A stretch of DNA of 64,000 nucleotides, taken from assembly GCA_030673845.1 (NCBI GenBank), contig JAUTCQ010000001.1:243913-307912 (forward strand), written 5' to 3'. The DNA is from Verrucomicrobiota bacterium JB022 (GTDB taxonomy: Bacteria > Verrucomicrobiota > Verrucomicrobiia > Opitutales > Oceanipulchritudinaceae). The notes beneath the pieces are model-generated. The model was not told the origin of the DNA, made no database searches, and saw nothing but the letters and a program-made list of their open reading frames with translations. Shown piece after piece: positions 14,111 to 47,349 of the stretch (position 1 is its first letter; the number at the start of each line of letters is the position of its first letter). The translations under genes and the position numbers were made by a program.

Positions 14111-14125
14111 GCCCGGCTCGGCGTG

Positions 14126-14920
14126 TCAACCGGCGGCCGCTTGGGCGATCCGTGCGAGCATCGCGGCGCGGTTGGGCACGGTGGCCGTCACGAGCCCGCG
14201 CTGGGCGGCCTCGCCTCCGTAAAAGCTCTGGCCCTCCATCGACCCCGGGTCCACAAACCGGCGCTTACGCGTCACTGCGTCCTTGAACATCACGTGCACC
14301 TGGTCGACGCGGGCTTGAATGAGCGCCCGCTGTTCGTCGGTCAGATCGGTACCCGGGTAGCCCATCGCCTTGTAGGTGCCAGCCTTGACCATCTCGGTGA
14401 AGAGCCCGTTTAGCTCCATCCACTTCGTCACGTTGAGCCAAGCGGTGAAGACGCCGATGCTGCCGACGTCCGCGCTTGGCGTGCAGAAAATCGAATCGGC
14501 CCGGCTACCGATCCAGTAGGCGGCAGAGCAGGCCATACCTTGCGTGTAGGCAAAGGTCGGCTTCGGGAACTCGGCCACCAACTCACCCAGCTCGGGCACG
14601 CCCGACAGCGTCCCGCCAGGCGAGTCGATTTCGAGCAGCAGCGCCTTGACCTTGTTGTCCTGCGCGAAGTCCTCGACTGCCGCCGCCGCGTCCAGCACAT
14701 CACACGCGCCCCACATCTTTTCGATGGGCATCAAGCCTTGGCCGATGGGCCCACAGATCGGGACGATCCCGATGCCGTCTTCTACTCGCGGCTTCGGCGG
14801 CTCGCCGTAGATCTCCGCCATCGCCTCCTGATACCACCCGCACCGCTCCACAAAGGAGGTCAGCAGGCGCGGCTCGATCAACAAAGGCTCGTGGCGGAGT
14901 AGGGCAGTGGCAAAACGCAT
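14126..14920 (-). CDS. S49-family prohead protease (lambda gpC-like)
   Basis: 264 residues with the SppA/S49 fold: IEIDSPGGTLSG-type strand-turn (residues ~97-108 LLLEIDSPGGTLSG), the nucleophile segment GMACSAAYWIGSRAD (Ser near 130), ADVGSIGVF, and the general-base segment VKAGTYKAMG (Lys in the 180s). It cleaves scaffold and capsid N-termini during head maturation. The coiled-coil scaffold follows directly, as in lambda C/Nu3. The start ATG 14920 is 13 nt after TTGACA (14934-14939), and that hexamer holds the stop of the inserted gene upstream. Confidence 0.85.
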   Translation of the reverse strand: MRFATALLRHEPLLIEPRLLTSFVERCGWYQEAMAEIYGEPPKPRVEDGIGIVPICGPIGQGLMPIEKMWGACDVLDAAAAVEDFAQDNKVKALLLEIDSPGGTLSGVPELGELVAEFPKPTFAYTQGMACSAAYWIGSRADSIFCTPSADVGSIGVFTAWLNVTKWMELNGLFTEMVKAGTYKAMGYPGTDLTDEQRALIQARVDQVHVMFKDAVTRKRRFVDPGSMEGQSFYGGEAAQRGLVTATVPNRAAMLARIAQAAAG

Positions 14921-14935
14921 GCCACGACGGGCTTG

Positions 14936-15577
14936 TCAACGGGGGACTGAAAGACGTTTTAACTCACCTGCAAAAGTTCGAAGTGCACGTCTATACTTGT
15001 AGATGTCGTCGAAACTTACACGTATTCGCCTAGAGCAGTCGATGGAACTTGTGTCTACTTCTCCAAGTTCTAAAATGCCTATAGACTTTTCACACCAGTA
15101 TCCGTTCGAATGTAGTAGTGTGTTTCTGATTGCGATAAGCTCGAACATGCCCTTAATGCACCAAGTATGCTGCGTAACACCCTTTAAGCGCTTTTGGTAG
15201 TATTGAACATAAGCTGTAGTTGAGCTAAGTGTATCAGTATGTTCCCCCTCGATGTCTTTATATATGGATTGGCAAATGGCATCCGCTGTCGCAGCCAATC
15301 CTATCATTAGAGCTTCAGCTCCATCTTCAGCGATCAGGTTAAACATTGTTTTGCCGTCTTCACTGCTGAGACGAATGTCGCCATTGCTGTATTTTTGACT
15401 TCTAAGAGAACTATCGAAGCCAAGGTCGCTTTTGGACCAGCGCTCAGAGTCTAGCAAGATGCTGTCGATTAGATCTTGGTCCGACCAGTCAATACTCTTT
15501 GCATGGGAGATGGCTACAATAAAGCCTGCTACGAATTGACTCCATCGTTTTGACAGGCTTATTGATTCGTCGTTCAT
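14936..15577 (-). CDS. HEPN-like protein inserted between portal and protease (cargo)
   Basis: 213 residues, much lower GC than the flanking head genes. Near residue 155 it has FELIAIRNTLLHSNGYW, which fits the HEPN signature R-N-x3-H (Rx4-6H with polar first x) of RNase domains in toxin-antitoxin, Abi and CRISPR-associated proteins. The rest is helical, as HEPN requires. No virion role is expected. The nearby portal and protease genes are lambda-like partners normally adjacent, so this is an insertion. Possible role: abortive-infection RNase. No antitoxin partner is visible. Family call moderate, activity inferred. Confidence 0.5.
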   Translation of the reverse strand: MNDESISLSKRWSQFVAGFIVAISHAKSIDWSDQDLIDSILLDSERWSKSDLGFDSSLRSQKYSNGDIRLSSEDGKTMFNLIAEDGAEALMIGLAATADAICQSIYKDIEGEHTDTLSSTTAYVQYYQKRLKGVTQHTWCIKGMFELIAIRNTLLHSNGYWCEKSIGILELGEVDTSSIDCSRRIRVSFDDIYKYRRALRTFAGELKRLSVPR

Positions 15578-15610
15578 AATTGAGCTTCTATTCGATCTAG
15601 ATCTAGAGAG

Positions 15611-17104
15611 TCAACCTATTGAATTGTCGTTCTGTTCTGCCACCACCTGCGTCCCGCTCGGCTTCCACAGCATGGACACGGGCACCCCATACCGTTCCGC
15701 TGCTTCCACGATTGCAGCCGCATCGGCTGCGCGGCGCTCAAGTTCTTCCCGGAAGTCCATGCCCAACTCGGCGTAGTGGTCGCTGAGCGTCTTCAGGCCG
15801 GTCTCCACATCGGCGCGGTTCTGCTGGGCTTCGCGGCCGGCATCTACGGTTACCCGGCGCGGCGTCACCCAGCTGACGAGGTTCCAGCCCTTTTTCGGCG
15901 CAAGTAAGCCGCGGTCGATGGCGTTGCCAATCACGTAGCCCCAGACGGGCACGAGGAAGCGCTTGATCAGGATCATCTGCCGATAGGAAAAGCGCCGGTC
16001 GGCTTTCGCCACCACCAGGCGGGTGGCTGCGCCGCCCACCTTGGAAGGGTCGGACACAAACTCATAGGGCAGCATCCCCGCCGAAGAGTCCCGCAGGAGC
16101 GCATCGTAGAAGCCCATGAAGGTCGGGCTCGGGCGCTTCGATTCAAAGGCTTCGAACTTCTCGCCCGGGCGCAGGGAGATCGTCTTCCCGCCAATGATCC
16201 GCTGGAGCGAAGCCGGGTCTGTGGGATCGTCGTCGGCCGCTCCACTCAGGCGAGAAGCCAAGTCGTCTCCACTCAAGCCCTCGGCGTCCCGCGTGATGAC
16301 ATTGGCCGCATCCGAATTGGCCTTCACCGCGTGCTTCTCGAGGGCCAGCAGCTCGATGGAGTCCTGCACGTTCAGGATCGAATGCTGGAGAGTCGGAGCA
16401 CTGCGAAGCGCGCTGGCGTTCTCCGGCTCGTAGATGTGCATCATCGCGTTCGCGGGCACATTGCGGGTCGATTCGTCGTCGAGCCGCAGACGGTAGGCAA
16501 TGGGCGCGCCATAGGCATCCACGATAACGCCGTCCTGGCTCTCAAACGGGAGGGAAGGATCGCCGATGCGGTGGGCTTCGATCAGTTGCAGGCGCGGCCA
16601 GTCGTTCCGGTCGCGCACCTTCATCACAAAGTATTCGCCGTCGACATCGAGCCCACGGCAGACGAGGTGCTGGCACTCCTCGAACGAAAACCGCCGCGTG
16701 ATCTCGGCCCGCGCCGCCCACTGCTTGAAGATTGCTTCGGCCTGGCGGTTCCACGCATCATCGTCCGTCTGCGCCTGCGGCTTCATCCCGTCGCCGGTCG
16801 AATAGATCGCCATGTCGCCCACGATCTCGCGCGAGAAGCCCGAGTTCTTTTACAGGTAGCGCGACTTGCGCACCAACTCGCTGCGCGTGCCCGAGGTCAA
16901 CTCCTTCTTCGCGTCCGTCGGCGCGGCCCCAGGGATGCGCGCCCGCCGGTGAGAGTAGTTAGCCGACTCGTAGGCCGAAGAGGCCTGCATCGCAGGCGCG
17001 GCGTCAGCCCACGAAAACGAGGTGTTCGGCAGTTGGTGCGTGCTGGTAGCGAAGCCCTCGGGCTGGGCTTTCGGTTGGCTTTGGCGGCGTCGGAAAAGCT
17101 TCAC
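15611..17104 (-). pseudogene. Lambda-type portal protein gene interrupted by in-frame TAA
   Basis: Two open stretches in the same frame, 17104-16853 and 16849-15611, encode one continuous lambda gpB-like portal separated only by TAA at 16852-16850. Reading through gives RSELVRKSRYL-stop-KNSGFSREIVGDMAIYS, the normal portal N-terminal helix region; TAC (Tyr) is the likely ancestral codon. The downstream part contains typical portal segments (NDWPRLQLIEAHRIGDP, AGMLPYEFVSDPSKVGGAATR). I place the start at GTG 17104, because it overlaps the upstream stop as GTGA and lies exactly 13 nt after TTGACA. Restart at ATG 16822 would lack ~95 residues. Readthrough, sequencing error or true decay are all possible; decay is favoured. 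Confidence 0.8.
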
Positions 17105-17355
17105 AGCGGCAGGCACCTGTCAACGAAGGTGCCCATCACTCTGCGCGGCGGTGCGTAATTCTCCGGGTCGAGCTTCTGCAACGCCCGCTGGCACGCCGCG
17201 ATGATCTCGTGGATCTCCGAGATCCGCCGCTTCGTCACGCTCGAGCCGTTGTCGGCGTAGGCCTGCTGGGTGCGCTTCAGCTCCGCCTTCTGCGCCTGAA
17301 GGATTTCCTCGACCTCTGACGTGGTAAAGCCTATGGAGTAATCAACTGCCGCCAT
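17101..17355 (-). CDS. gpW-like head-tail joining protein
   Basis: 84 residues of two-helix type: VEEILQAQKAELKRTQQAYADNGSSVTKRRISEIHEIIAACQRALQKLD. Lambda gpW-family proteins (~68 residues) have this helix-beta-hairpin-helix arrangement and are encoded between terminase and portal, as here. The protein seals the filled head and provides the tail docking site. The ATG at 17355 is 13 nt after TTGACA (17369-17374). The stop overlaps the portal GTG start by 4 bp. Directly upstream the strand switches to three inserted plus-strand genes. Confidence 0.65.
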   Translation of the reverse strand: MAAVDYSIGFTTSEVEEILQAQKAELKRTQQAYADNGSSVTKRRISEIHEIIAACQRALQKLDPENYAPPRRVMGTFVDRCLPL

Positions 17356-17381
17356 GCAGGCGGGAGGATGTCAAAGGACCA

Positions 17382-17630
17382 ATGAATCCTATCGTCAAAA
17401 AAATGCAGCAGGCTGTGAATCATGCGTCCCCTGGGCGTAGAACTGCCACAATTCATACGGAGTTTTTCATTTACTCCCATGAGCTAGCTGAAATGGAGCC
17501 TTCGGAGAGAAAAGAGGCTGTAGAGGTGGTAACGGGCAATCAAAATTACAATGCTGAACTCAATAAGCTTATCCGGCTTAGGATGATGCTGCAAGAGCGC
17601 GGTTACCAAATCACTCCACCGCCTCGCTAA
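17382..17630 (+). CDS. Small hypothetical cargo protein
   Basis: 82 residues, MNPIVKKMQQAVNHASPGRR..., soluble and helical in the second half (NAELNKLIRLRMMLQERGYQ). No family recognised. It reads opposite to the phage late operon and is AT-richer than its neighbours, which marks it as part of an inserted segment between gpW and TerL. A hairpin 40 bp downstream (17670-17698) could end its transcript. Could be a regulator or one half of a small module; nothing in the sequence decides. Confidence 0.5.
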   Translation: MNPIVKKMQQAVNHASPGRRTATIHTEFFIYSHELAEMEPSERKEAVEVVTGNQNYNAELNKLIRLRMMLQERGYQITPPPR

Positions 17631-17669
17631 GGCGTTAGAAACGGGAGCTGAAGTCACTCTTGCTGACTT

Positions 17670-17698
17670 AGCGGAGAGGAGTCCTCGGAGGCTCCGCT
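17670..17698 (+). terminator. Hairpin downstream of small cargo gene
   Basis: AGCGGAG (17670-17676) and CTCCGCT (17692-17698) form a 7-bp stem with an inner partly paired 15-nt loop. No T-run follows, so as an intrinsic terminator it would be weak; it may instead stabilise RNA. Confidence 0.35.
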
Positions 17699-17779
17699 CG
17701 AGCGGTATACACTCAAGGGTTTAATCCACTAGGAACAATCCTCAAAGGTCATCCCCTAAGCTTTTAGATTCCCTACCGT

Positions 17780-18292
17780 ATGCAATACGAACTTCTCGTT
17801 CCTGCGTTTTCAGCTCTCATGGGTGCTGTTGTTGGTGGCTTGGTTACTTATTTCACGACGAAGGCTATGGAGCGCTGGAAGCAGAATGAAGAACGAAAAG
17901 TAGTTTTTGCAGCGATGGTAGCGGAAATCGAGATGATAACAGTTCACTTGGACCGCAGGCACTACGCAGAGGACATGGAACGAATAATTGAGGATTACCG
18001 CAAGGGGCGCCGAAGTCAGTTGGACTACCATGTAATGATTCCGGAAGATTACTGCCCAGTCTACAAATCCCATTTGTCTAGGATTGGCCTTCTTCCCTAT
18101 CCCCTTATTGGGGATATAGTCAGGTTCTATCAAATTTTACAGTCTATCGTCGAAGATGTTCGACCAGGCGGCCCAGTAGCGGAGGGTTGTAGCGAAGGTA
18201 CAATGGTTGAATGTGTTGCTATTACTCGAGAAGCCACGCGCTTAGGCAGGGATGTGGTCAAGAAAGCTAAACCGCTTCTTGCTCGGTTGTGA
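17780..18292 (+). CDS. Membrane-anchored hypothetical cargo protein
   Basis: 170 residues. Residues 5-30 form one transmembrane helix (LLVPAFSALMGAVVGGLVTYFTT), followed by a cytoplasmic basic/charged stretch (KAMERWKQNEERKVVFAAMVAEIEMI) and a mostly helical soluble domain. Proteins of this layout (N-terminal TM, then a DUF4760-like helical body) are frequent in defence and accessory islands, but I cannot name a family. It is in the same plus-strand insert as the genes at 17382 and 18590. Its role may be membrane-based superinfection exclusion; this is inference. Confidence 0.55.
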   Translation: MQYELLVPAFSALMGAVVGGLVTYFTTKAMERWKQNEERKVVFAAMVAEIEMITVHLDRRHYAEDMERIIEDYRKGRRSQLDYHVMIPEDYCPVYKSHLSRIGLLPYPLIGDIVRFYQILQSIVEDVRPGGPVAEGCSEGTMVECVAITREATRLGRDVVKKAKPLLARL

Positions 18293-18589
18293 TCACCTAC
18301 GATATTTCAAACAGCGCTCTCAGAGTGCGGTTCGGATTGTGCGGATTCGGAGCAAGCCGTTATATGTCGACAAGTTCAGTGCGCATGCAGGATTCGGATC
18401 TCCTAGTGCCAGTGAGGGTTTCCAGGAGGGGCACCTCAGCGAAATCGAGGGCCAAGTATGAACGTGCTTTGATCCGCGTTTTAGAGGTTAGGTCATAGTT
18501 TCTAAAAAAACTGTAGTGTCTGCTGGTGTTTTTTTTGCTAGATTCGCATGTGATGTTAATGAATCGCTGGTTTTGTCGATTTACACGAT
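18293..18589. other. AT-rich spacer inside the plus-strand cargo insert
   Basis: About 300 bp without a convincing gene. A 69-codon plus frame (18289-18498) exists but its composition is unlike a protein. It contains a run of eight T's near 18530 after a short A-run (TAAAAAAACTG), which could end the upstream transcript or form part of the promoter of the 18590 gene. No clear -35/-10 pair was identified. Confidence 0.4.
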
Positions 18590-18976
18590 ATGTTGTCTCT
18601 GCCCTTATTGATACAAAGAGCTACTAAAGAGTATATCGACCATCGAGAGCAATATGATGGTTTGGCTATGCAGGAGCTAACGAATCTCCTTGATCAACTC
18701 GCTAAAAAGGTGTTTGGAACTACAGGATTCCGCTGGACGTCGTACAACAAATTCCAGTTCGAGAAGCTGGCATGTGAATATGAATCTTTTCAAGGCGTAG
18801 CTGCATTCTCTATGGATCAAGAGGATGAGGAACATTCTGACTGCTACAAGACCTTGCATATTGGGAATACCGAAGGTGAATTTCCCAAGCAGATCTGGAC
18901 TAGTCACACGAAGCAAAGGGCAGGTTTTATCCAAGTTCTGAAATCGATGGGATATGGGATGGATGGCCTCGAATAG
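18590..18976 (+). CDS. Hypothetical cargo protein
   Basis: 128 residues, MLSLPLLIQRATKEYIDHREQYDG..., soluble, with Cys and aromatic residues scattered (FRWTSYNKFQFEKLACEYESF) and an acidic middle (MDQEDEEHSDCYK). No family recognised. It ends 53 bp before the TerL stop, convergent with it. AT-rich like the rest of this insert. It is the third gene of a plus-strand segment bounded by two copies of TTGACATC (minus strand; near 19027 and 17367). Confidence 0.5.
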   Translation: MLSLPLLIQRATKEYIDHREQYDGLAMQELTNLLDQLAKKVFGTTGFRWTSYNKFQFEKLACEYESFQGVAAFSMDQEDEEHSDCYKTLHIGNTEGEFPKQIWTSHTKQRAGFIQVLKSMGYGMDGLE

Positions 18977-19028
18977 AAGGAGCTCCATCCCTGTTATCGT
19001 AGCTCAGAAGTCACATGGCCGCTTGATG

Positions 19029-20816
19029 TCAATCTGAGGCGTCAGTTGCCTCGCTGCTGATGAGCTTCAACATGACAGCGGCGACCACCTGCATACTTTC
19101 CGCGTCCCAATAGTGATTCGGACGCTTGCCGATTTGGACCCACTGCCATTTGCCTTTGACATGCTGGCGGTGCTCGCTCTCGAGTTGCTTGAGGTAGTCT
19201 TCGGGAGCGTCCGCGGGGACTTGCCACATGGGTTCACCATCGGGGCCGGCTTCGCGGCGGAGGCGGGCGAGGATGTCCTTGATTGAGAGGTTGGACCAGT
19301 AGTGCATCACGCAGACCCGACCGGAGACGTCCGTTCGTCGGGCAGGGGAGTAGAAGCGCTGCATGCGTCGCTTGCCGTCTCGGTGCCCGAACGAAGCGTG
19401 GGCGCCGTCGCCCATGAGGGCGGTCCAGCCACGGGCGGCGCAACGGCGGTAGACCTCATAGCTGTTGTAGCCAGCGTCGACGAACACGAGGCCCGCGTGG
19501 ATCTCGAAGCGCTCCTGGGCCTGCTCAATGTCTTCCCAGGTGAGTGCACGCTGGCACCAGAGTAGCCGGGATTGCCCCTCGGCCGACCAGCTCCGCACGA
19601 CGAGCCAGAAGTGGTCCATCTGCACGTCGACGGTCAGGAAGCGCAGGCGCACCCGGCATGACTCGGCCGGGAAGGGTGCGGCCAGTAGCTGCGCCTTTGC
19701 ATCGAGCCCCGCTTCCTCTTCCCAATCTTCGCCGAGACGGTAGCCGCTGGCCGCGATCTCGACCTTGAAGTCCTCCGCGTAATCGTTCCAGGGCAGGGCG
19801 AGGCGCTTCTGGTAAAACACCTGCAAGCGGCTGATATCGCCTTTCCTTTCCGCCATCTTGGCCCGCAGGTATTCCTCAGCCAACGCGCCCCACGACATGG
19901 CGCAGAGGCCGTTCCAGTGGAAGCCGACCGTCTCCTTCGCCGCGTTCGGATTCTGAGGGACGAACTTGCCCGTCGCGTTCAGCCGGCGGCGGCTCTCCGG
20001 CGTGTCCTCGATTGCGTGGTTGCAGTGCGCGCAGTGCATGGCGGTCGCCTGCCTGATGCGCGAAAAGTCGTAGCGGCCGCTGGCGTCCTTGCAGTCCTTC
20101 GGCCACTCGATCTGCTCCCACTTGAAGGGCTGACGCTCCCCGCAGGCCGGGCAGGCGAAGGTCCACTCGCGCATGTCCGTCGTCTCGAACTTACTGTGCG
20201 TGTCGTCATCCGCCGTCCCGCCCTGGCTGGTGAACACGCACTTCCCCAGCCATCCGAAGGCCGTCACCCGCGCCTCAGCCTCGGCCATGTGTCCCGCAGG
20301 CCAGCGCCAGGTTTCGTCTCCAATCAACCAGCGAATGGAGCGGCGCTGGAGGTTGGTCTTGTTCTCAGCCCCGCGCACCCAGAGGCTCATCCCGTTGGCA
20401 AAGTGGACGGTACTCTTGCGCTTCTTGTGGGGATTGAGCGGGAAGAGGCGGGTCACCGGCTCGCACTCCTCGAACAGGACGTGCAAGCGGGATTCGGCCT
20501 GGTCCTTCGCATCCTCGTCCGTCTGGTCGAGCCAGAGACAAGGCCCCGGCAGATTCGCCACGATGTAGCAGAGCGTCAGCTCGGGGATCGTCGTCTTCGA
20601 ACTCTGCACGCTCGCCACAATCGAGACCAGCCGCACCCGCGGGTCGACGATCGTTTCCATCACCTCGCGCATCCAAGGGGCGTTCTCAGTTCGGAACCGC
20701 CCCGGAATCGGGGAATAGGGAATTGAGCGCACATGCTCTTCGCACCATTCCCACGGCGTCCTGCGGTCAGGCGGCCGCCAGGCCTCGCGCCAGATTTGCT
20801 GCAGCGTGTTCGTCAC
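19029..20816 (-). CDS. terL: Terminase large subunit (lambda gpA family)
   Basis: 595 residues. ATPase part: Walker A-like VASVQSSKTT (residues ~69-78) and Walker B IRWLIGDETWRW (~160), typical of the gpA/phage_GPA family; a Cys-containing zinc-like knuckle CPACGE...CAHCNH at ~225-265; nuclease part with LTVDVQMDHFWLVV (~390) and FVDAGYNSYEVYR (~440) supplying acidic residues. It translocates DNA into the prohead and cuts concatemers. Start GTG 20816 is exactly 13 nt after TTGACG (20830-20835) and has no Shine-Dalgarno. In lambda the gene abuts the small subunit; here a 3-kb TIR gene intervenes. Confidence 0.95.
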   Translation of the reverse strand: MTNTLQQIWREAWRPPDRRTPWEWCEEHVRSIPYSPIPGRFRTENAPWMREVMETIVDPRVRLVSIVASVQSSKTTIPELTLCYIVANLPGPCLWLDQTDEDAKDQAESRLHVLFEECEPVTRLFPLNPHKKRKSTVHFANGMSLWVRGAENKTNLQRRSIRWLIGDETWRWPAGHMAEAEARVTAFGWLGKCVFTSQGGTADDDTHSKFETTDMREWTFACPACGERQPFKWEQIEWPKDCKDASGRYDFSRIRQATAMHCAHCNHAIEDTPESRRRLNATGKFVPQNPNAAKETVGFHWNGLCAMSWGALAEEYLRAKMAERKGDISRLQVFYQKRLALPWNDYAEDFKVEIAASGYRLGEDWEEEAGLDAKAQLLAAPFPAESCRVRLRFLTVDVQMDHFWLVVRSWSAEGQSRLLWCQRALTWEDIEQAQERFEIHAGLVFVDAGYNSYEVYRRCAARGWTALMGDGAHASFGHRDGKRRMQRFYSPARRTDVSGRVCVMHYWSNLSIKDILARLRREAGPDGEPMWQVPADAPEDYLKQLESEHRQHVKGKWQWVQIGKRPNHYWDAESMQVVAAVMLKLISSEATDASD

Positions 20817-20835
20817 GCCGGGGCGGGGGCGTCAA

Positions 20836-23800
20836 CTACTTGGTGCGCAGCTTCTCGATCTCGGCGATCTCGGTCGCGATGGCGTCTTTGGTGAAGTTAT
20901 CGAAGTCTCGGAGCTGATTGGAGTCACTGATGGTGCTAAGGATTTCGCTCGTTTCAATCGCAAAGTGGCGCATAAGATCCCACTTGGCCTTGTCCGACGG
21001 GGAAAGGTATTCGTGACCACATTCTTTGATAGCCTCCTGAAGCTTTTTATATTTTTCGCCCCAGAATTTGCCGCGCTTCATACGGCCAATGGGCTTTTGT
21101 ATATCTCGGGCCGATTTAATGAAATAGACTCGGGCTTTGGTTCGGAAGTCTTCGTGGTCGGTTAGAACATGCTGCCATGCACCGTAGAGTTCATACATAC
21201 AGTTTTCAGACTTTAGGTATCGATCACTGAGGAAGATATAGACGCGGTCCGCACGAGAAATTCGATTCATGAATTCACTCAAGCTATGGTGGACTAAGGC
21301 ATGGGTTTTATCACGGATGACCTTGATCCCGGCCTCTAACATTTGTTCGCAGAAGGAGTCGACTCTACCCTGGCTGTCGCTCTTATCGTCGTCGTTGTCC
21401 CACCAGGCGTAAGAAACAGCGATTTCGAGTGCACAATTGGGGATTTTGCGCCTGTCATCCATTTTGGGCTGATAGCTGGGGTCTTTTTCGGGCAAGGCGA
21501 CGTTTCGCTGGGGGCGGTCTTCAGGCTCGATGGTGGCGGTGCATTTACAGGCGCAGTGGTTGCCAACATTATTGATCCACTTGTGGATAAGGGCGTTGAG
21601 CTTTCGTGGATCCCTGCCTTGAGTGCGCAGGTGGATCTCGCCCTTTGTGCCTCCGGTGAAGCGGGCCTCAACGAGTGCAGAGGAGCCGGAATGTGCTTCG
21701 TGGAATACAAAGGCTCCGTTTTTCCAGTAGTGGCCATAGGCCCCCGCTTCGGATCCGATCTTGAAGATCAGACTGCGGATGAGCCCGTGGTGAAGGAAAT
21801 CGTATCGATAGATGCGTTCAACCGTTTCTGCTTCTTCATCCCAGCGCCCATGCATAGAGACCTTGAGCGCATCTTGATCGGCGGGCAGCAGTTCTGGGGC
21901 TACGTAGGTGTTACCGAGCTCTTCGTCTCTCTCCAAAATAAAGGCGATGCCGCAGGAGAGCATCATGCTGAGGAACATCTCTTGGTCGGCACGCGAATAG
22001 CCTTGAGCATCCCATAGCCAGGCGGCGAGGTCGTCGAGGGTAAAGCGGCCTTGTTGACTGCGGATGCGGTCGGCCAGGCTCTGGTTGCGATGCCCTTTGG
22101 GTTTGCGGTCGAAAACGGCGTAGATCGCATTGAGTGCCCAGCTTTGATCGAGGATGATCTGGCTTTCAAAATGGTCGCCGTCGTGGAAGAGCCGTCCGGT
22201 GTCGTGGAGGAAGTGCAGCAGGCTTTCAGGGGAAGACACATCGCCATTGCCTAGGTCGCATAGGGCCTTGAACGCCGACCAGCTCAAGGTGCGGTGCAAG
22301 CGATCGGCTTCAGGACGCTGGCGATCCTCTTCTTGCCAGGTGGTAAGTTGGCGGTGCACCCGCATGCGCCCTGCACCGATGTGGCTGATTCCCTCGTTCT
22401 GTCTCAATGCGCCTACAGCGTCTAAAATCGCTTGGCGTAGGCTGTCGGCGCCGTAGCCAGTTCTGGCGCTAAAATGAACCGTGCGCGGTCGCATGCCGCG
22501 AAACTGCTTCAGGATCTCATTGTCGGGGACAATGGCTTCCGAAGATACCTTATCGCACTGCGTTTGCACCACGACGACCGGGCTATGGGCGCCTCCAAGG
22601 TGGTAGACATATTCCAGCCAGTAAGGGAGGCGCTGGTTCTGTTGGTCTCGGTATCGGTCGGTGTTTTCGAGTGCGGGAGTCCAGGCGACGATGAAGACCG
22701 CCCGAGTGCGCATAAAGAGCGCGTGGGTGCCGTGATAGAGGTCTTGCCCACCGAAGTCCCAGTAGTTGCAGGCGATGTCACTCTCTTGCTCCACTCCAAT
22801 GGGGGCTGGGAATGCCATGCGGCTAAGGTGTATGCCATGCGTGCTAGGCTCTGCCTCGTCATAGGCCTTCCCTTGGAGGTGCCGGCAAAGTTGGGTTTTG
22901 CCAACGTATCCATTGCCGATGATGATCACTTTGATGTCCGTAAACGTTGCTGGTTCTGCTTTCTTCAGGTCACGCAAATGGTTCCGTAGCTGTTCTAGAT
23001 CCCTCACCACCTCGGCAGGGACGCCTTTGACGGTAGTCCCTGAGAAATCCCACAGCTCGAGAGAAGCCTTGAGGACCAGTGCTTCGGGAAGCTGATTAAG
23101 TGATAAGTTTTGGCATTCGAGGTCATAGAGGTTCTGAAGTCCCGCCAGTGGGTGAAGGTCGCTAACTCGCGTATCCGAACAGTTGAGCCTTATCAGGCTC
23201 TGGAGCCCGGCCAAGGGGCCTAGATCATGGATCGCGTTAGCTGCGCAATCGAGCTCTTGGAGGGCCTGGAGCCCAGACAGGGGAGCAAGATTATGGACTG
23301 CGCAACCATAGCAACATAGGAGGCGGAGGCTCTGGACCCGAGCCAATGGCGAAAGATCGCTCACCTTTGTAAGGGAGCAGTCGAGTATTTGCAGGTTTCG
23401 AAGTTCCGCCAAAGGGGTAAGGTCGTTTACGTCGGTAAAGCTGCAAATCAGGACTTTGAGGCTCTGGAGCTTTTCGAAGGGACTGAGGTCGCTGACCCTC
23501 GTGTGAGAACAATGGACCTCCTGAAGGTTCTTTAGCCCCTTTAAAGGTCTAAGGTCAGTCACTGCGGTGTTCTCACACTCGAGCCATTTGAGGCTCTGCA
23601 GCTCAGCCAATGGCGAGAGATCAATGATACTGGTGTCGCTGCATTTTAGCTCCTTTAGCTTAGTTAATTTGGAAAGCGGGGACAAGGCACCCGATCCATT
23701 GAGTGGGTTGCCGTGAGGGGAAAAAGTACCTCCCAGTAAAAGCGACTCCAAATCTTCCAACTCGGCCAGTTCGCTGGGTAAGAGGGTCAGACCCAGGTCA

Positions 23801-23880
23801 CATAGATCGAGTTGTCCGCTTCGTTCCTGCTTTTCCTGTGCAATCCGTCTAAGAGCTTCACTGTATCCGTCTTCATGCAT
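20836..23880 (-). CDS. LRR-Roc-COR-TIR protein (prophage-borne NLR-like defence candidate)
   Basis: 1014 residues. Residues ~20-290: about ten leucine-rich repeats of the LSPLAxLxSLxxLxC type. Residues ~310-480: Roc GTPase with P-loop GNGYVGKTQL, switch-II DFGGQDLYHGTHALF and TQCDK base-recognition motif. Residues ~500-760: COR-like region (LSWSAFKALCDLGNGDV, GRLFHDGDHFESQIILDQSWALN). Residues ~835-960: TIR domain starting LEIAVSYAWWDND with the catalytic-position Glu in CMYELYGAW, the site required for NAD+ cleavage in active TIRs. LRRs likely sense, Roc-COR switches, TIR depletes NAD+ or makes a signal. The gene lies between terminase subunits on the late-gene strand; lower GC than TerL. 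Direct phage-defence function is inference. Confidence 0.9.
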   Translation of the reverse strand: MHEDGYSEALRRIAQEKQERSGQLDLCDLGLTLLPSELAELEDLESLLLGGTFSPHGNPLNGSGALSPLSKLTKLKELKCSDTSIIDLSPLAELQSLKWLECENTAVTDLRPLKGLKNLQEVHCSHTRVSDLSPFEKLQSLKVLICSFTDVNDLTPLAELRNLQILDCSLTKVSDLSPLARVQSLRLLCCYGCAVHNLAPLSGLQALQELDCAANAIHDLGPLAGLQSLIRLNCSDTRVSDLHPLAGLQNLYDLECQNLSLNQLPEALVLKASLELWDFSGTTVKGVPAEVVRDLEQLRNHLRDLKKAEPATFTDIKVIIIGNGYVGKTQLCRHLQGKAYDEAEPSTHGIHLSRMAFPAPIGVEQESDIACNYWDFGGQDLYHGTHALFMRTRAVFIVAWTPALENTDRYRDQQNQRLPYWLEYVYHLGGAHSPVVVVQTQCDKVSSEAIVPDNEILKQFRGMRPRTVHFSARTGYGADSLRQAILDAVGALRQNEGISHIGAGRMRVHRQLTTWQEEDRQRPEADRLHRTLSWSAFKALCDLGNGDVSSPESLLHFLHDTGRLFHDGDHFESQIILDQSWALNAIYAVFDRKPKGHRNQSLADRIRSQQGRFTLDDLAAWLWDAQGYSRADQEMFLSMMLSCGIAFILERDEELGNTYVAPELLPADQDALKVSMHGRWDEEAETVERIYRYDFLHHGLIRSLIFKIGSEAGAYGHYWKNGAFVFHEAHSGSSALVEARFTGGTKGEIHLRTQGRDPRKLNALIHKWINNVGNHCACKCTATIEPEDRPQRNVALPEKDPSYQPKMDDRRKIPNCALEIAVSYAWWDNDDDKSDSQGRVDSFCEQMLEAGIKVIRDKTHALVHHSLSEFMNRISRADRVYIFLSDRYLKSENCMYELYGAWQHVLTDHEDFRTKARVYFIKSARDIQKPIGRMKRGKFWGEKYKKLQEAIKECGHEYLSPSDKAKWDLMRHFAIETSEILSTISDSNQLRDFDNFTKDAIATEIAEIEKLRTK

Positions 23881-23935
23881 TGCGGCATATTCACTAGATC
23901 TTCATCATCATGTCGTCCAGTCGGAACGCTTTACT

Positions 23936-24529
23936 TCACGCTTCGTTCAGCGTCTCACACACCTCATCAATCGCCCTCGCGCACTCCTGCCGGATCGCTA
24001 CGGCGTCCATGCCTGAGAGCACCGGCGGCAGTTCGCTCTCGAATTTCTGGCGTAAGAGGGCGATGGCTTTGTTGACCTCTGTGGTCCAGATTTGGCGGAC
24101 CTCGTCGATGGCGACATACTGACCCCGCCGCACGGAGAGGCGGAACTCCCGCTCTTCGACGTCGATTTCCATCCGCCGGCGCTTCAGGGCGTCGACATCC
24201 GAGGCTGCCTCCTTTCCCTTGAGGCCCTTTGTTCGGACGAACTCACGCCATGCGGCGACATCGTGCTGGCCGTTGGTGGCGGTTTTGGGTGCGCCTTTCA
24301 GCTTGCGCCAGTTGGTGATGGTCCGCCGGTTCACGCCGAGGGCTTCCGCCAGTTCCGCAATGGATCCAGCGCGGGCCGTCGATTGGTTCGACCCGACAAG
24401 TCTGGCTTCCACCAGGGCTCGCTCGGTTGCCGTCAGCGTCTTGCCCGAAGCGACCTTGCGCACGAGGTTCTCGTAATCCTTCTGCAGGATTTTCTTGGCT
24501 GCCTCTTCATGTAAGCCCTCTTGCCCCAT
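23936..24529 (-). CDS. terS: Terminase small subunit (Nu1-like)
   Basis: 197 residues. Residues ~55-85 form a helix-turn-helix (SIAELAEALGVNRRTITNWRKLKGAP) like the winged HTH of lambda Nu1; the C-terminal half is helical (RGQYVAIDEVRQIWTTEVNKAIALLRQKFESELPPVLSG), as in Nu1-type oligomerisation domains. It recognises cos/pac DNA and loads TerL. The start ATG 24529 is 14 nt after TTGACG (24544-24549), one of two 14-nt cases. TerL would normally follow directly, but the TIR gene begins 55 bp downstream. Confidence 0.8.
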   Translation of the reverse strand: MGQEGLHEEAAKKILQKDYENLVRKVASGKTLTATERALVEARLVGSNQSTARAGSIAELAEALGVNRRTITNWRKLKGAPKTATNGQHDVAAWREFVRTKGLKGKEAASDVDALKRRRMEIDVEEREFRLSVRRGQYVAIDEVRQIWTTEVNKAIALLRQKFESELPPVLSGMDAVAIRQECARAIDEVCETLNEA

Positions 24530-24545
24530 CAGAGCCGATAGGGCG

Positions 24546-25118
24546 TCAACGGATCAGCCCTTTGATCCAAGTCCAAACTCTTTGGATCAGCGGGTTAAGA
24601 TTCAATGTCATTCCCGAGAATGTGGGCTTTAGGTCTACAATTCTTTCGGGTTCTTCGCTTTGTCGAGAAAGAAGCGAGAAGAATCTGCATGTTGTGTAAT
24701 GTTGAGGCGTTATCTTGTACCATTGAAGACGCCAATCGTCACTTCCTTCCTCAATTTGCAGGGCTGCGATCGCTTCGTCTTGTTCTTCAGCTGATGGGTA
24801 GGAATACAGATATGTAGCAAAAATCCCGAATTGATCGAAGACCACTTCAGGGCAAGCATTTGATAACATTTTTCGCTCTCCTCCAGAGACTGAAGTCTCG
24901 TCCTCAGCCCGTTCATCCCAGAGATTTGAGCGTTTCCATTGGTCTGTATATTTTTTAGAGACGCGGTTATCGAGAGGGACGCTACCCATTTCTTGAAGTA
25001 ATTGGGCGGTGATGAAATAGCGGGGGCATTTTGAATAAGAGCCGAAGGGGCACCGGCAACAAACTTTGGCCTTCTGGCTCTCCTTGGAATACCACTCCAT
25101 ATTTGGCTGAATAGGCAT
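24546..25118 (-). CDS. Cys-rich hypothetical cargo protein upstream of TerS
   Basis: 190 residues, AT-rich, with an N-terminal cysteine cluster KVCCRCPFGSYSKCPRYF (residues ~17-34) that could bind zinc or an Fe-S cluster, and a C-terminal Trp/Leu tail. No family recognised. Its last four codons plus stop repeat those of the preceding methyltransferase gene (both end LIR), giving a 13-bp direct repeat TCAACGGATCAGC at 24546 and 25173 on the plus strand. That flank indicates insertion. It lacks its own TTGAC-N13 start signal. Confidence 0.55.
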   Translation of the reverse strand: MPIQPNMEWYSKESQKAKVCCRCPFGSYSKCPRYFITAQLLQEMGSVPLDNRVSKKYTDQWKRSNLWDERAEDETSVSGGERKMLSNACPEVVFDQFGIFATYLYSYPSAEEQDEAIAALQIEEGSDDWRLQWYKITPQHYTTCRFFSLLSRQSEEPERIVDLKPTFSGMTLNLNPLIQRVWTWIKGLIR

Positions 25119-25185
25119 ACGACGCTAGCTGCAAGAGTATATACCAGTGAAGGATGAATCAAGCCAAGTGGTTCAACGGATCAGC
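24546..25185. repeat. 13-bp direct repeats flanking the Cys-rich cargo gene
   Basis: TCAACGGATCAGC at 24546-24558 and again at 25173-25185. Each copy contains the last codons and stop of the gene to its right (reading minus: ...CTG ATC CGT TGA). The DNA between is AT-richer than either side. This is the footprint expected if a cassette entered at the gene boundary by recombination between identical short ends. Confidence 0.65.
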
Positions 25186-25877
25186 AGCCAGCCGCAGAAC
25201 TGCACGTCCTTGAAGACGACCTCGATTTGGGAGAAACCGGCGGCGCGGAAGTCGGCCTCGTTCTCCTGCATCGTCTGGGGAAACATGCAGCCACGCAGGG
25301 CTTGCGCCTTGTTCAGCACCTGAGCCGGTGTCAGGCCGTTGGCGAGCTTCATGTCCCAGTAGAGCTGCTGGATGATGTCTTGCGTGGTGGAGCAACTGCC
25401 CATCACCTTCTCGACGATCATCATGGCCCCGCCGAGCTCGAGACGGTCGCCGATCCGGGCCAGCAACTCCCGCCGAGGCCCCGGGCGCAGGAATTGCAGC
25501 GTGTAGAGCGCCACGCCATAGCTGAAATGGGGCAGGGCCGTCAGGCGCTCGAGATCCTGAAACGTGACGCCGATGCCCTTTTGCGCCGCCTGGGCGATCA
25601 TCGCCATGCTGTTGTCGTAGCCGACCAGGCGAATGTCCTTGGAGTGGCGTTCGCGGATGCGGCGCATGGTCTCGCCGGTCGAGGCGCCGAAGTCGATGAC
25701 CGTGCAGCCGGGGTAGGTGAACCAGTCGGAGAAGCTCGCGGCCAGCTCCTGCACGCGATCGTAGTCCGGCACGCTTTTGCGCACGTGCTCATCGAAGTGG
25801 GGTGCGACATGCTCGTCGAACACCCAATTGCTGGAGTGAGTCTGGATGCACTCGTCCGCGTCGATTTGTGGCGCCAT
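25173..25877 (-). CDS. Class I SAM-dependent methyltransferase, CmoA-like
   Basis: 234 residues. SAM-binding motif I is VIDFGASTGETMRRI (residues ~60-74), followed by RLVGYDNSMAMI and YTLQFLRPGPRRELLARIGDRLELGG (motif III/post I region). The N-terminal FDEHVAPHFDEHVRKSVPDYDRVQEL closely resembles the opening of CmoA carboxy-SAM synthases, and the C-terminus FCGWLLIR has the same strand ending. Target unknown: tRNA, a small molecule, or DNA bases in concert with the adjacent ParB-type proteins. The start is 13 nt after TTGACA (25891-25896). Confidence 0.7.
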   Translation of the reverse strand: MAPQIDADECIQTHSSNWVFDEHVAPHFDEHVRKSVPDYDRVQELAASFSDWFTYPGCTVIDFGASTGETMRRIRERHSKDIRLVGYDNSMAMIAQAAQKGIGVTFQDLERLTALPHFSYGVALYTLQFLRPGPRRELLARIGDRLELGGAMMIVEKVMGSCSTTQDIIQQLYWDMKLANGLTPAQVLNKAQALRGCMFPQTMQENEADFRAAGFSQIEVVFKDVQFCGWLLIR

Positions 25878-25922
25878 GCCAATGCGCTTCTGTCAATCAA
25901 TGCGTGAACAGGTGAACACCTT

Positions 25923-26345
25923 TTAGGCGGGAAGCCGGAAGCGCTCAGGGTCCGTCACGGGTTCGGACGCGATGCCGAACTTCTCATACATGCTCCGCGT
26001 GCGCGGGTTGCTCTCAAGGCCGTAGAAGCCCGTGCGCCCATAGCGCGGGAAGATGTGGGTCTCCAGCAGGTGCTGCTTGATCTGCGGCGGCCGATTGCGG
26101 ATTTCGGCAAAGAAGGCGGCCTCAGGTTGCCAGCCGGTCTGCTCCTGGATCCGGGTAAGGGTGGGCTCGCGATAGCTATCCGGTCGAGCCGTGATGAGGA
26201 TCACCTGGTGCGGTCGCAGCAGCTCGACCAGCCATTGCCGGTATTCCTCCTGTTCGATCTGGCGGATGAAGGGTCGGATGGGCGCAGAGCCGCGCTCCGG
26301 CGAATTGCCGACGAGGGTGTAGTTGAGGTCGAGCAGGTAGATCAC
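25923..26345 (-). CDS. HAD-like hydrolase / phosphatase
   Basis: 140 residues. Motif I is LLDLNYTLVG (DxNxT, with the second Asp replaced by Asn), motif II is LITARPDSY, and the later FYGLESNPRTRSMYEKFGI carries the motif III/IV acidic region. These fit small HAD-fold phosphatases such as nucleotidases and polynucleotide 3'-phosphatases. The Asn in place of the second Asp may reduce phosphohydrolase activity or change the reaction. GTG start overlaps the previous stop (GTGA), so it is co-translated with the ParB-methyltransferase fusion. Substrate unknown. Confidence 0.65.
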   Translation of the reverse strand: MIYLLDLNYTLVGNSPERGSAPIRPFIRQIEQEEYRQWLVELLRPHQVILITARPDSYREPTLTRIQEQTGWQPEAAFFAEIRNRPPQIKQHLLETHIFPRYGRTGFYGLESNPRTRSMYEKFGIASEPVTDPERFRLPA

Positions 26346-41565: not shown

Positions 41566-42291
41566 ATGCCCTCGGAAGCCACGCACCTGAGTGATAAACT
41601 CGCCTCTCTTTTGGCGGCCTATGGTCAGAACCAGTCTGATTTGGCACGCCTGACAGGCCGACACGCTTCGGTCATCACAGCCACTATGCGAGGACAGCGG
41701 AGTCGTCCGGACTTCCTTGAGGCGCTGTTCAGCGCCTTCCCTCGCAATGAAGAAGACCGCACCGCCTTGATCGAAGCGCACCTCAAGGACGAGTGTGTCC
41801 GCGCGGCCGTGGACTACAGCAGCTTGCTCGCGCGCTTCTCGGACAACGACCCGCGCCTGGCTCGCTTCCTGGCTAAGGGCCCCGAGCACGTAAACACACT
41901 GCTCAACCTCTCCGAAGAAACCGAAAAGGACTCCGGCCTCGAGGACATGCTGACCTACCTGGCCAGCCTCATCGAAAAGACCCGCAACCCCGCCGAAGCC
42001 GATTGGAATATCGACGACGAAGAGAAGGCAGCCATCAGCGCCATCGCCCACTTGCCGCACCTCTCCGCTCGGATCGCCCACAACCAGCTCGAGTCCGCCG
42101 CCAGCGAACTCCTGAAGCACCTCAAGCACCGCCTGGCCCACGCCGACGCCCAGACCATCAGCCGCACCGCCCGCGCCATCTGGAACGACAACGACTTCGT
42201 CAAGATCGTCGAGCTTGCCCTCCAGCACGATCCGGCCAAATCCGAAACCACCGCCAACAAAAAAGCCAAGCGCAACGGCTTGGCAGGGTAG
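41566..42291 (+). CDS. CI-like repressor with N-terminal HTH
   Basis: 241 residues. Residues ~5-55 are a helix-turn-helix (KLASLLAAYGQNQSDLARLTGRHASVITATMRGQ). The remainder is helical, Ala/Leu/Asp/Glu-rich, with no recognisable LexA-type Ser/Lys protease site, so this repressor may not be cleaved by RecA-type induction. It lies divergent to the early operon across a palindromic operator. The ATPase-HNH pair follows 4 bp after its stop, so the defence genes would be expressed in the lysogen with it. Confidence 0.7.
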   Translation: MPSEATHLSDKLASLLAAYGQNQSDLARLTGRHASVITATMRGQRSRPDFLEALFSAFPRNEEDRTALIEAHLKDECVRAAVDYSSLLARFSDNDPRLARFLAKGPEHVNTLLNLSEETEKDSGLEDMLTYLASLIEKTRNPAEADWNIDDEEKAAISAIAHLPHLSARIAHNQLESAASELLKHLKHRLAHADAQTISRTARAIWNDNDFVKIVELALQHDPAKSETTANKKAKRNGLAG

Positions 42292-42295
42292 AACA

Positions 42296-43768
42296 ATGAA
42301 ATTCCTAAAAGTAGCGCGCAAGGAGCCTTATCCAACTCCTAAGGAGGGGGAGATTTTGTTTTTCTTATTAGTAGACAATTGGAATGATTTCTCGAACGTA
42401 GTTACGTTTCATTTGTTCTACGCCCACGATTTTGTAGAAACAAATATAGGAGAACTGAAAATACTCCAGAAAACAACAGAAGGTGTGAAAAGTCACACTG
42501 ACATCCCGAGCGAGTTTGAGAGCTTGGACGATGATTACATATCTCTAGGCCAATCTGACGACTATTACACCAGGCTTTTTGACCTCGGAAAAGAAGTAGC
42601 TGAACAGGTGCTTCTTTCGTTGAAGGATATCTCATGGATCCCATCTTTGGCCGGTCCGTTTGAGCCTTCTAGGCAATTTCAAAAGGCCCTGATGAGGTTT
42701 CCGCAGAGCTTTAGGTGCCGTCGTCTCGGGGCGAAGTTAGCGCGCGGCGAGACTCCAAGCGAGAGCTATTCATTTCTCTACGAATGCGACTTAAACGCAG
42801 GGGAGCCTCCGGTAGTTGTAGATCTGAATTTCGACGCCAATGATCCAGTGCCGAATCGAATATGTGCTTTAATTGGCAGAAACGCTGTTGGAAAAACTCG
42901 CTTGCTCAATAGAATGGCTGAAGACCTCGCTATACTGGATGACTCTAGTGAAGAGGCGTATGCTGCACGGGAGGCTCGTTTCTTATCTGGGAGACCTTTA
43001 TTTGCACGAGTGCTTGCTGTATCTTACAGTGCTTTCGATAATTTTAAGCGCCCTGATCAAGACGGTCGGAGCAGCTATGTATATTGTGGGATAAGGGATG
43101 ATGAGGGCCTTATATCGAGAGAAGCTCTTCTTGAGAGCTATAGGTGCAACAGGGAGAGAATTAAGAATCAGGAGCGCGTTACAGAATGGGTTGGCTATAT
43201 CCTACAGATCATGGACGGCCACAGCGCATCTCTTCAGCGAAAACTGGAGAATGAAGCATGGAAGGGTGAGCGGTTTGATGAGCTTGAACGGTTAAGCTCA
43301 GGCCAAGCGATTTTGTGGCATTTTATTACCTCAATGGTCGCATGGATTCAGCGCGATTCACTCGTATTGTTTGATGAACCCGAAACTCACTTGCATCCGA
43401 ATGCGGTCGCCGGTTTGTTCTCGGTGATGTCTTCATTGCTTGAGGATTTCCAGTCTTATGCAATACTGGGTACTCATTCACCAGTGGTAATTCAAGAGGT
43501 GCCTGCAAGAAGAGTAATCGTGCTGAAACGAGAAGATGGATATACTTTCTCCGAAAGATTAGGGATCGAAAGTTTCGGAGAGAGTATTAGTGAGCTTACG
43601 CGTCACGTCTTTGATACAGGCGGGGTGGATATGCATTATAAAGATGTCCTTCAGAAGCTTGCGCGAAATCGAAGCTTCGATGAGGTTATGCAAATGTTTG
43701 ACGGTAATCTCAGTATGAATGCTCAGGCATATCTTCTCTCTGCATGCACAAAGAGAGGTGGTAAATGA
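42296..43768 (+). CDS. SMC/ABC-type ATPase of a Septu-like (PtuA-like) pair
   Basis: 490 residues from ATG 42296. Residues ~190-210 contain Walker A IGRNAVGKTRLL; signature ERLSSGQAILWHF near 345; Walker B LVLFDEPETHLHP near 375; and H-loop-like ILGTHSPVVIQE near 410. This is the AAA_15/AAA_21 type used in Septu PtuA, OLD-like and retron ATPases. Low GC relative to the repressor. ATGA overlap with the HNH gene implies coupled translation. The ATPase probably senses or gates the nuclease. Subfamily from gene pairing, not from sequence match. Confidence 0.75.
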   Translation: MKFLKVARKEPYPTPKEGEILFFLLVDNWNDFSNVVTFHLFYAHDFVETNIGELKILQKTTEGVKSHTDIPSEFESLDDDYISLGQSDDYYTRLFDLGKEVAEQVLLSLKDISWIPSLAGPFEPSRQFQKALMRFPQSFRCRRLGAKLARGETPSESYSFLYECDLNAGEPPVVVDLNFDANDPVPNRICALIGRNAVGKTRLLNRMAEDLAILDDSSEEAYAAREARFLSGRPLFARVLAVSYSAFDNFKRPDQDGRSSYVYCGIRDDEGLISREALLESYRCNRERIKNQERVTEWVGYILQIMDGHSASLQRKLENEAWKGERFDELERLSSGQAILWHFITSMVAWIQRDSLVLFDEPETHLHPNAVAGLFSVMSSLLEDFQSYAILGTHSPVVIQEVPARRVIVLKREDGYTFSERLGIESFGESISELTRHVFDTGGVDMHYKDVLQKLARNRSFDEVMQMFDGNLSMNAQAYLLSACTKRGGK

Positions 43769-44652
43769 AAAAGATAAAACTGCCTGATTCATCAGTCACG
43801 CCTATTCAGCAATACTTAAAGATAAGGAACACAAAGCGTAATCCGACGAAGTCAGTTTTGTGCGGTTCTCATGCTTATATAGCAGAGCGATATGCACACT
43901 TAGATGAGGCCGTTGTTGCAAGCAAAAAGGTCGACTTGGTTGAAGAGGATCCATCAGGCTGGACCATTAAAGATGCTCTTTGTTCGTGCTACGAAAGCGA
44001 AACAAAGGCGCTTCGCAACTTGCTCAATGAAATCAAGAAATTACGGCAGGATGGGTCTGGGAAATACTGCCCTATGTGCGGGGCAGCTACGCCCAAAACT
44101 TTCGACCATTATTTTCCACGCGCTACGTTTCCTGAATATGCTGTACATGTTTGGAATCTGATTTACACCTGCGGTACCTGTAATTCCAAAAAAGGCGACA
44201 TTTACAAGTCAAATTCCGTAATAGGCGAAAGAGCCTTTATTCACTTTTATGTAGATGATATACCCGATGTGCCGTTCATCAGAGCAGATATTATCGAGAC
44301 CGAAGATAGCCCGTTTTTTGGTGTCGAGTTTCGACTAGTTCAGCTGCCGGAGATTGATGAATATATTTGGAGGTTAATTCTTCAACACTTTTCAAATCTT
44401 GATTTGCTGGGCTTATATGCCGAAGTGGTTAACGATGAGATATCGACATCCATTGAGATTGTCTATAACGCAGTTGCCTCTGGTGCGAATGCAAGACAGT
44501 TTTTGGAGATGCAAACAAAAACCGAAAGAAGAAGGTTTGGTGTGTCGCATTGGAGGGCCGCACTTCTTGAATCAATGACTAATCATCCTCATTTGGAAAA
44601 GTGGATACAAGCCTTCGCAGATCAAAAGAAACCAACCGGTTCACAATGTTAA
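43765..44652 (+). CDS. HNH nuclease of a Septu-like (PtuB-like) pair
   Basis: 295 residues. Residues ~90-145 form an HNH domain: CPMCGA...TFDHYFP...VWNLIYTCGTCNSKKGD, giving two CxxC zinc knuckles, the DH dyad and a terminal N-x-K. Such domains cut DNA or RNA. In Septu systems an ATPase (PtuA) and an HNH protein (PtuB) suffice for phage defence. Here the PtuB-like protein is larger than usual. It ends convergently with the RexB-like gene. Confidence 0.75.
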   Translation: MKKIKLPDSSVTPIQQYLKIRNTKRNPTKSVLCGSHAYIAERYAHLDEAVVASKKVDLVEEDPSGWTIKDALCSCYESETKALRNLLNEIKKLRQDGSGKYCPMCGAATPKTFDHYFPRATFPEYAVHVWNLIYTCGTCNSKKGDIYKSNSVIGERAFIHFYVDDIPDVPFIRADIIETEDSPFFGVEFRLVQLPEIDEYIWRLILQHFSNLDLLGLYAEVVNDEISTSIEIVYNAVASGANARQFLEMQTKTERRRFGVSHWRAALLESMTNHPHLEKWIQAFADQKKPTGSQC

Positions 44653-47059: not shown

Positions 47060-47108
47060 TTGATTTGTAATCAGTGGGTCGTCGGTTCGAGTCCGACAGC
47101 TGGCTCCA
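47060..47108 (+). other. attR: 3' part of tRNA-Thr(TGT)
   Basis: The sequence holds the anticodon loop TTTGTAA (anticodon TGT), TCAGT arm, variable loop GGGTC, T-arm GTCGG-TTCGAGT-CCGAC, acceptor strand AGCTGGC, discriminator T and CCA ending at 47108. The 5' half (acceptor GCCAGCT, D-arm) is missing; upstream is phage DNA. Integration into tRNA 3' ends leaves such a truncated copy at one border. The intact tRNA should be beyond the left edge. Confidence 0.85.
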
Positions 47109-47349
47109 TTTTCCCCTTGATAGTAGGAAGTTTGAAAGGCTTTCGGTAGCTCTGCCGTCAATATCGCTTGGATTTACGTAGCTTTCGTATATTCAAGGAT
47201 TTACATGTTTTCTGCTGGCAAGAAGCATTGCTGTGGTCGTGCCATTTTCCGTTATGACAGCAGGCAGCGCTGCGCACGGTGGTAAAGGTTTGTGCTTAGG
47301 AAAAGATTAGGCTTGTGTCTCCCTTAACGGCGTTCTGTGTTGGAGTTAA

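Follow-up and report, generated by a model that had tools for sequence, protein, structure and literature searches.

Why would a phage keep, between the two genes for its terminase subunits, a gene whose product joins leucine-rich repeats (LRR), a Roc GTPase, a COR domain and a TIR domain? We address this question for a prophage of Verrucomicrobiota bacterium JB022, using a window of 64,000 nucleotides from contig JAUTCQ010000001.1 in which such a gene (hereafter Roco-TIR) separates the genes for the small (TerS) and large (TerL) terminase subunits. The gene is accessory cargo and probably encodes a superinfection-exclusion receptor, which on sensing a rival phage would deplete NAD+ through its TIR domain.

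An intact four-domain gene in a bounded prophage

The gene, the parts that encode its domains and the two flanking genes are as follows (positions in the window):

19029..20816, minus strand: TerL, gpA type (Pfam GpA_ATPase 7.3e-38, GpA_nuclease 2.4e-23)
20836..23880, minus strand: Roco-TIR, a single intact open reading frame (ORF) from ATG to TAG, 1014 amino acids (aa)
20839..21453, minus strand: TIR domain plus C-terminal helices (residues 810-1014), with the conserved Glu897
21550..22296, minus strand: COR-A and COR-B, residues 529-777 (Pfam)
22552..22932, minus strand: Roc GTPase, residues 317-443 (Pfam Roc, E 6.8e-21), with P-loop GNGYVGKTQ
23115..23820, minus strand: LRR part, about residues 21-255, bounds approximate (Pfam LRR_4, E 9.7e-25)
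23936..24529, minus strand: TerS-like gene (phrog_57 'terminase small subunit', 1.3e-10)

The frame is uninterrupted (no internal stop across 1014 codons) and every Pfam domain call on its product lies above the curated cut-off of the family: besides those listed, COR-A (residues 529-665, E 3.2e-18), COR-B (residues 685-777, E 9.6e-9) and TIR_2 (residues 820-903, E 1.1e-7). The LRR part has a regular period of 22 residues, with eight motif matches at that spacing (counted by script), and, as in Roco proteins, the Roc domain carries a P-loop and a DxxG motif and is followed by COR. No STAND NTPase family (NB-ARC or NACHT) was found in the protein with Pfam at E 0.01; it has Roc and COR instead and so differs from the STAND/NLR receptors (TIR-NLR, Avs).

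The P-loop starts at residue 322 and Glu897 lies within CMYELYGAW. In an alignment of 63 of the 120 listed family proteins (query counted), G322, N323, G327, K328 and T329 are identical in all rows, as are the DFGGQ positions, and G324 is conserved in 62/63; in the TIR domain S823, D857 and S885 are invariant (63/63) and E897 is present in 62/63, the remaining row being gapped there. A separate TIR alignment (39 of 72 usable TIR regions and that of the window) has a Glu at this position in 40/40 rows. The TIR profile places E897 in the same column as the Glu of Roq1 (CLEEL), L6 (CLMEL) and RUN1 (CLDEL), residues that we take to be catalytic. An earlier note on this stretch had already counted this Glu among the intact key residues. 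The assignment is supported by PDB entry 7s2z, according to its title an NAD complex of RUN1 carrying E100A, and counting by residue offset suggests that the aligned RUN1 Glu is this E100. Two features of TIR NADases, the TIR fold and a Glu at the catalytic position, are present, and the predicted TIR fold resembles enzymes that differ in the type of product they make.

The predicted model of the protein matches the Roco protein of Chlorobium tepidum (6hlu), which is alike in LRR-Roc-COR order, in sequence (PDB 6hlu and 8r4b, E 1.8e-86) and in predicted fold, whereas the PDB match spans LRR-Roc-COR only and not TIR. Residues 788-815 of the model have a predicted local distance difference test score (pLDDT) below 50 and form a flexible linker before the TIR domain. 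The Chlorobium protein is, to our knowledge, not phage-borne.

The prophage around the gene measures 51,820 bp, both repeats counted, with a perfect 52-bp repeat at its ends. The features that define it, together with the portal gene, are:

about -4707, same contig, outside the window: attL, covering the 3' end of a tRNA-Thr gene
about -4550 to -3324, beside attL, outside the window: integrase (Phage_integrase, E 7.1e-9)
15611..16822, minus strand: portal protein, lambda family (Pfam)
47061..47112, plus strand: attR, 52-bp copy of the tRNA-Thr 3' end

Its gene content comprises tail, capsid (phrog_283), S49 protease, portal, terminase, primase-polymerase, RusA and helicase genes. TerS, Roco-TIR, TerL, portal and capsid share one strand (the late strand), and the spacing is tight: 55 nt from the TerS stop to the Roco-TIR start and 19 nt from the Roco-TIR stop to the GTG of TerL. 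The TerS-like gene, in which no Pfam family lies above cut-off, is a weaker assignment than TerL. The earlier note had described four domains in one intact prophage gene, an intact P-loop and TIR Glu, and a late-strand position between TerS and TerL, and all of this is borne out by the domain calls, the att repeats, the alignments and the spacing.

The terminase interval and the protein family in other genomes

Relatives of the window terminase were collected from IMG/VR (79 loci) and from genomes, 125 loci in all; 15 loci that duplicated others at shorter length, or were the window itself, had been left out beforehand. Dropping 11 loci without a TerL start and 21 without a recognisable TerS left 93 with both genes, which were merged to 38 distinct cases by TerL similarity and interval length. 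That TerS and TerL are normally adjacent, as the earlier note assumed, holds for 25 of the 38 distinct relatives (interval ≤120 bp) and fails for the other 13, which carry cargo (>250 bp). The longest interval among the 38 is that of the window, and no other interval among them contains a Roco gene. The content in guanine and cytosine (GC) of the insert lies below that of the adjoining TerL in 12/13 (counted by script), a few of the differences being small. As in prophage exclusion systems, Roco-TIR lies within a prophage and is missing from relatives at the same place. The other inserts are:

L115:13809-15310: DUF4747 protein and hydrophobic 207-aa protein, between TerS and a split TerL; RexAB-like
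L009:6116-7898 (viral contig): SoFic-like Fic protein and an opposite-strand gene weakly like PD-T4-9_A
L219: three opposite-strand genes, no Pfam match
L018: 23S_rRNA_IVP protein
L016, L022: 234-aa genes, HNH-like by eye; L016, the one scanned, has no Pfam match
L214, L224, L223: short DUF559-like genes; Pfam matches weak and below cut-off in the first two, absent from L223
L073, L098, L117: genes of unassigned type

The interval survey that the earlier note had proposed thus found cargo in 13/38, and three of these 13 inserts are exclusion-like (Roco-TIR, the DUF4747 pair and the Fic pair). The DUF4747 pair belongs to a second terminase locus of the same genome (L115, on contig C21), where TerL is split over frames. 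The DUF4747 match is strong (E 4e-58) and the downstream protein has three to four hydrophobic segments. Among 273 genomes from the order, DUF4747 was found in the window's own genome only, so that two loci of one genome hold different, rare cargo of exclusion type in the same slot. The pair is late-oriented and has a promoter-like site just upstream (13745-13772); the consensus scan of this locus gave 8 promoter-like sites against a shuffle mean of 1.7. Defence pairs reported from the Gordonia phage CarolAnn, the mycobacteriophage Sbash and phage Butters combine a membrane protein of four passes with a partner that matches DUF4747 weakly, and were compared to lambda RexAB by their authors (PMC6426606, PMC6426596, PMC7542560).

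The protein itself has many relatives in bacteria. A protein search scored 7992 candidates, 1956 of them at E 1e-10 or better; among the 120 listed rows (query counted) a TIR family accompanies Roc in 109 by manual count, and the homologues listed reach at most 44% identity to the window protein. A genome scan confirmed 322 relatives, the best 80 of which were kept, come from many phyla and yielded a TIR region in 72/80. A novel domain fusion was therefore rejected: the LRR-Roc-COR-TIR order is common in bacterial genomes, among others in proteins whose annotation reads 'internalin A' or 'COR domain-containing protein'. The gene is unusual for its terminase context in a prophage and not for its fusion, the novelty of which the earlier note, sound in its anatomy, had over-read. 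Local uptake from the host lineage was also rejected: of 177 related genomes, the 176 besides its own gave no match at E 1e-60; further matches within its own genome are LRR stretches only. Among plasmids 36 records matched, one of which (Niveispirillum cyanobacteriorum) reached 98% coverage at 34% identity.

Phage carriage of Roco-TIR is rare. In INPHARED 20 records matched, none covering more than 26% of the protein and all inside residues 60-351, a stretch of LRRs that reaches no further than the beginning of Roc. A direct search of IMG/VR with the window protein returned nothing, and a scan with the family alignment gave 15 pattern matches, three of which were confirmed as Roco loci (L124, L125 and L126), the reach of such pattern scans being limited. 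L124 and L125 are near-identical prophages whose Roco proteins (93% identical) contain LRR, Roc, COR and TIR, so the absence of such a gene from other phages, which the earlier note had envisaged as speaking against its proposal, was not what we found. The L124 gene has a CI repressor on one side and a tyrosine integrase on the other; its product, used as a query, returned L124 and L125 only and no new prophage in IMG/VR, and no match in INPHARED. The Roco gene L126:8875-11718, on a viral contig, has Roc and COR, has no TIR match and adjoins an S24 repressor-like gene; its C-terminus shows a weak NPHP3-domain match. With the TIR alignment, IMG/VR yielded a single locus, the phage-like contig L207, whose two TIR genes are not of the Roco type. 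These genes (L207:623-3924) are adjacent, have alike C-terminal TIR-like parts and lie beside a serine recombinase-like gene.

In the part available of a 2019 review, the prokaryotic Roco proteins then identified were put in the LRR-Roc-COR group and TIR is unmentioned (PMC6337361), and a survey of viral NAD+ systems describes TIR domains as infrequent in viruses and suggests that they might limit superinfection (PMC9503650). In the open-licence literature, covered by titles and abstract openings, we found no report of a phage-borne Roco or of an anti-phage bacterial Roco-TIR, nor a function reported for bacterial LRR-Roc-COR-TIR proteins. What this analysis adds is the exact extent of the prophage, the slot survey and the independent phage-borne copies, the fusion itself being already known.

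Proposed function and its alternatives

If Roco-TIR acts as an exclusion receptor, the LRR arc would bind a component of the incoming phage, and binding would shift the nucleotide state and dimerisation of Roc-COR, gathering TIR domains across the flexible linker; this step is modelled on Roco biology, where Roc-COR is described to cycle between monomer and dimer (PMC6337361). As in TIR enzymes, the clustered domains would then cleave NAD+ through Glu897, and the loss of NAD+ would halt the infected cell before the rival's cycle ends, so that neighbouring lysogens would be spared.

Several known systems share parts of this arrangement. Tab of the Pseudomonas phage JBD26 is a prophage-borne anti-phage gene that likewise lies between the small and large terminase genes, although it encodes 83 residues that block tail assembly and Roco-TIR is a multidomain protein of 1014 aa (PMC10884400). 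This precedent makes the terminase location credible for defence, while the window lacks a Tab-like opposite-strand promoter and inhibitor. The TIR-STAND-TPR protein ('TIR-NLR') of the P4 hotspot is a proven defence, encoded by a single gene of a phage-related element and combining TIR, a nucleotide switch and repeats; it differs in having a STAND NTPase and TPR instead of a Roc-COR GTPase and LRR, and its TIR stands at the opposite end (PMC9122126). SpbK of ICEBs1 is a TIR NADase on a mobile element that is activated by a phage portal protein, but it resides on an integrative and conjugative element and, as far as the source excerpt goes, has no Roc-COR or LRR (PMC12847820). The RexAB-type pairs (lambda, CarolAnn, Sbash) act in prophage exclusion and resemble the pair in the L115 slot, whereas their protein family and effector differ from Roco-TIR, and the CarolAnn pair is co-expressed with the repressor (PMC6426606, PMC6426596).

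The slot occupants in relatives and the Tab precedent (PMC10884400) thus favour the exclusion between phages that the earlier note proposed, while the chromosomal neighbours give no direct evidence of it. This and several other results weigh against such a role. The 80 chromosomal Roco loci show no clear pattern of defence genes or phage among their neighbours: in a set of 123 ORFs around these loci (best 80 of 322), each of the PADLOC families listed (25 of 70) matched one or two ORFs, and tblastn of 19 phage or defence proteins against the loci gave one match, an integrase near L133. For Roco-TIR itself the sole PADLOC match is bSEFIR (E 6.5e-6). Exclusion-protein-like inserts make up only 3/13, and the remaining inserts, among those scanned, have no PADLOC match. 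Tab is read from the opposite strand and has a promoter to itself whereas Roco-TIR lies on the late strand, and no inhibitor gene is recognisable that would correspond to anti-Tab, the partner of Tab that is made with the late genes (PMC10884400). Finally, a consensus scan of 20600-25200, which does not reach other promoter types, found no promoter-like site on the strand of Roco-TIR; its four sites are all on the other strand. Late orientation together with this result makes expression in the lysogen the weakest step of the proposal.

The same facts would suit a protein that acts in the lytic phase only, transcribed with the late operon and either protecting the already committed cell from phages that co-infect or arrive second, or aiding the phage's own late programme by altering NAD+ or a cyclic ADP-ribose signal. 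Roco-TIR shares the strand of TerS, TerL, portal and capsid and lies within 55 and 19 nt of its neighbours, and the lack of a promoter-like site on its strand, set against the one before the L115 DUF4747 gene, makes this a serious rival. We nevertheless hold it to be rather unlikely: a suicide NADase made late would endanger the phage's own burst, the L115 pair has its upstream site in spite of late orientation, and the scan is blind to other promoter types. Improbable, in our judgement, is that the gene is a recent arrival of no use to the phage and retained by chance; this would agree with the distance to the listed homologues, none of which is a close relative, with its occurrence in 1 of 177 related genomes and with the nuclease-like and unassigned genes that the slot also houses, but the 1014 codons have stayed open, the nucleotide-binding and TIR catalytic positions agree with 62-63 of 63 homologues and exclusion-type genes occupy the slot elsewhere. 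That the TIR domain produces a nucleotide signal for a separate effector seems very improbable, even though its fold is near enzymes of several product types. In Thoeris a ThsA-type (SIR2-SLOG) effector adjoins the TIR gene, whereas the genes flanking Roco-TIR are TerS and TerL, and the scanned genes of the window (part of the ORFs) showed no SIR2, no SLOG and no other effector gated by a messenger.

Beyond the receptor role favoured for Roco-TIR, we tentatively suggest, at somewhat less than even confidence, that in this phage lineage weapons are swapped in and out of the TerS-TerL junction (which has held Roco-TIR, RexAB-like, Fic and other cargo) and that Roco-TIR is a phage-captured, LRRK2-like LRR-GTPase-TIR suicide sensor in the packaging operon. 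With Roco-TIR captured in such a slot, the whole bacterial Roco-TIR family would form a class of GTP-switched anti-phage receptors not described before. If this is true, the Roco proteins of bacteria, which are related to the Parkinson's kinase LRRK2, would have a natural task in inter-phage immunity, and the gene would offer a small single-gene system for studying how Roc-COR switching drives an effector. The defence site known from Tab would likewise extend to a second, unrelated phage lineage with varied cargo, and the TerS-TerL junction would be a place to search for exclusion genes not yet known.

Further cargo of the prophage

Low-GC cargo also occupies three further junctions of the prophage, one preceding TerS, one following TerL and one following portal, and a defence-like pair lies near attR:

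14936..15577, minus strand: 213 aa, between portal and S49 protease, no family match
17382..18976, plus strand: 82, 170 and 128 aa, on the opposite strand between TerL and a head gene at 17101
24546..25118, minus strand: 190 aa, between a methyltransferase-like gene and TerS, no family match
42215..44652, plus strand: Septu-like pair (PtuA/PtuB; PADLOC PDC-M01A 9e-133, PDC-M01B 1e-56)

The 190-aa gene, directly upstream of TerS, is a possible partner or inhibitor of Roco-TIR. The 82-aa gene, first of its three, matches HTH_73, and the 170-aa and 128-aa genes match nothing. Sequence searches of PDB returned no usable match for three cargo proteins, namely the 213-aa one, the DUF4747 protein of L115 and the 196-aa protein of L009, and Rfam gave no match over window positions 14000-26000. 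By eye, RNTLLH in the 213-aa protein looks like a HEPN motif. Beyond the prophage, 50327-51856 and 53503-59952 hold fragments of an IS66 transposase and an RHS-repeat protein of 2149 aa.
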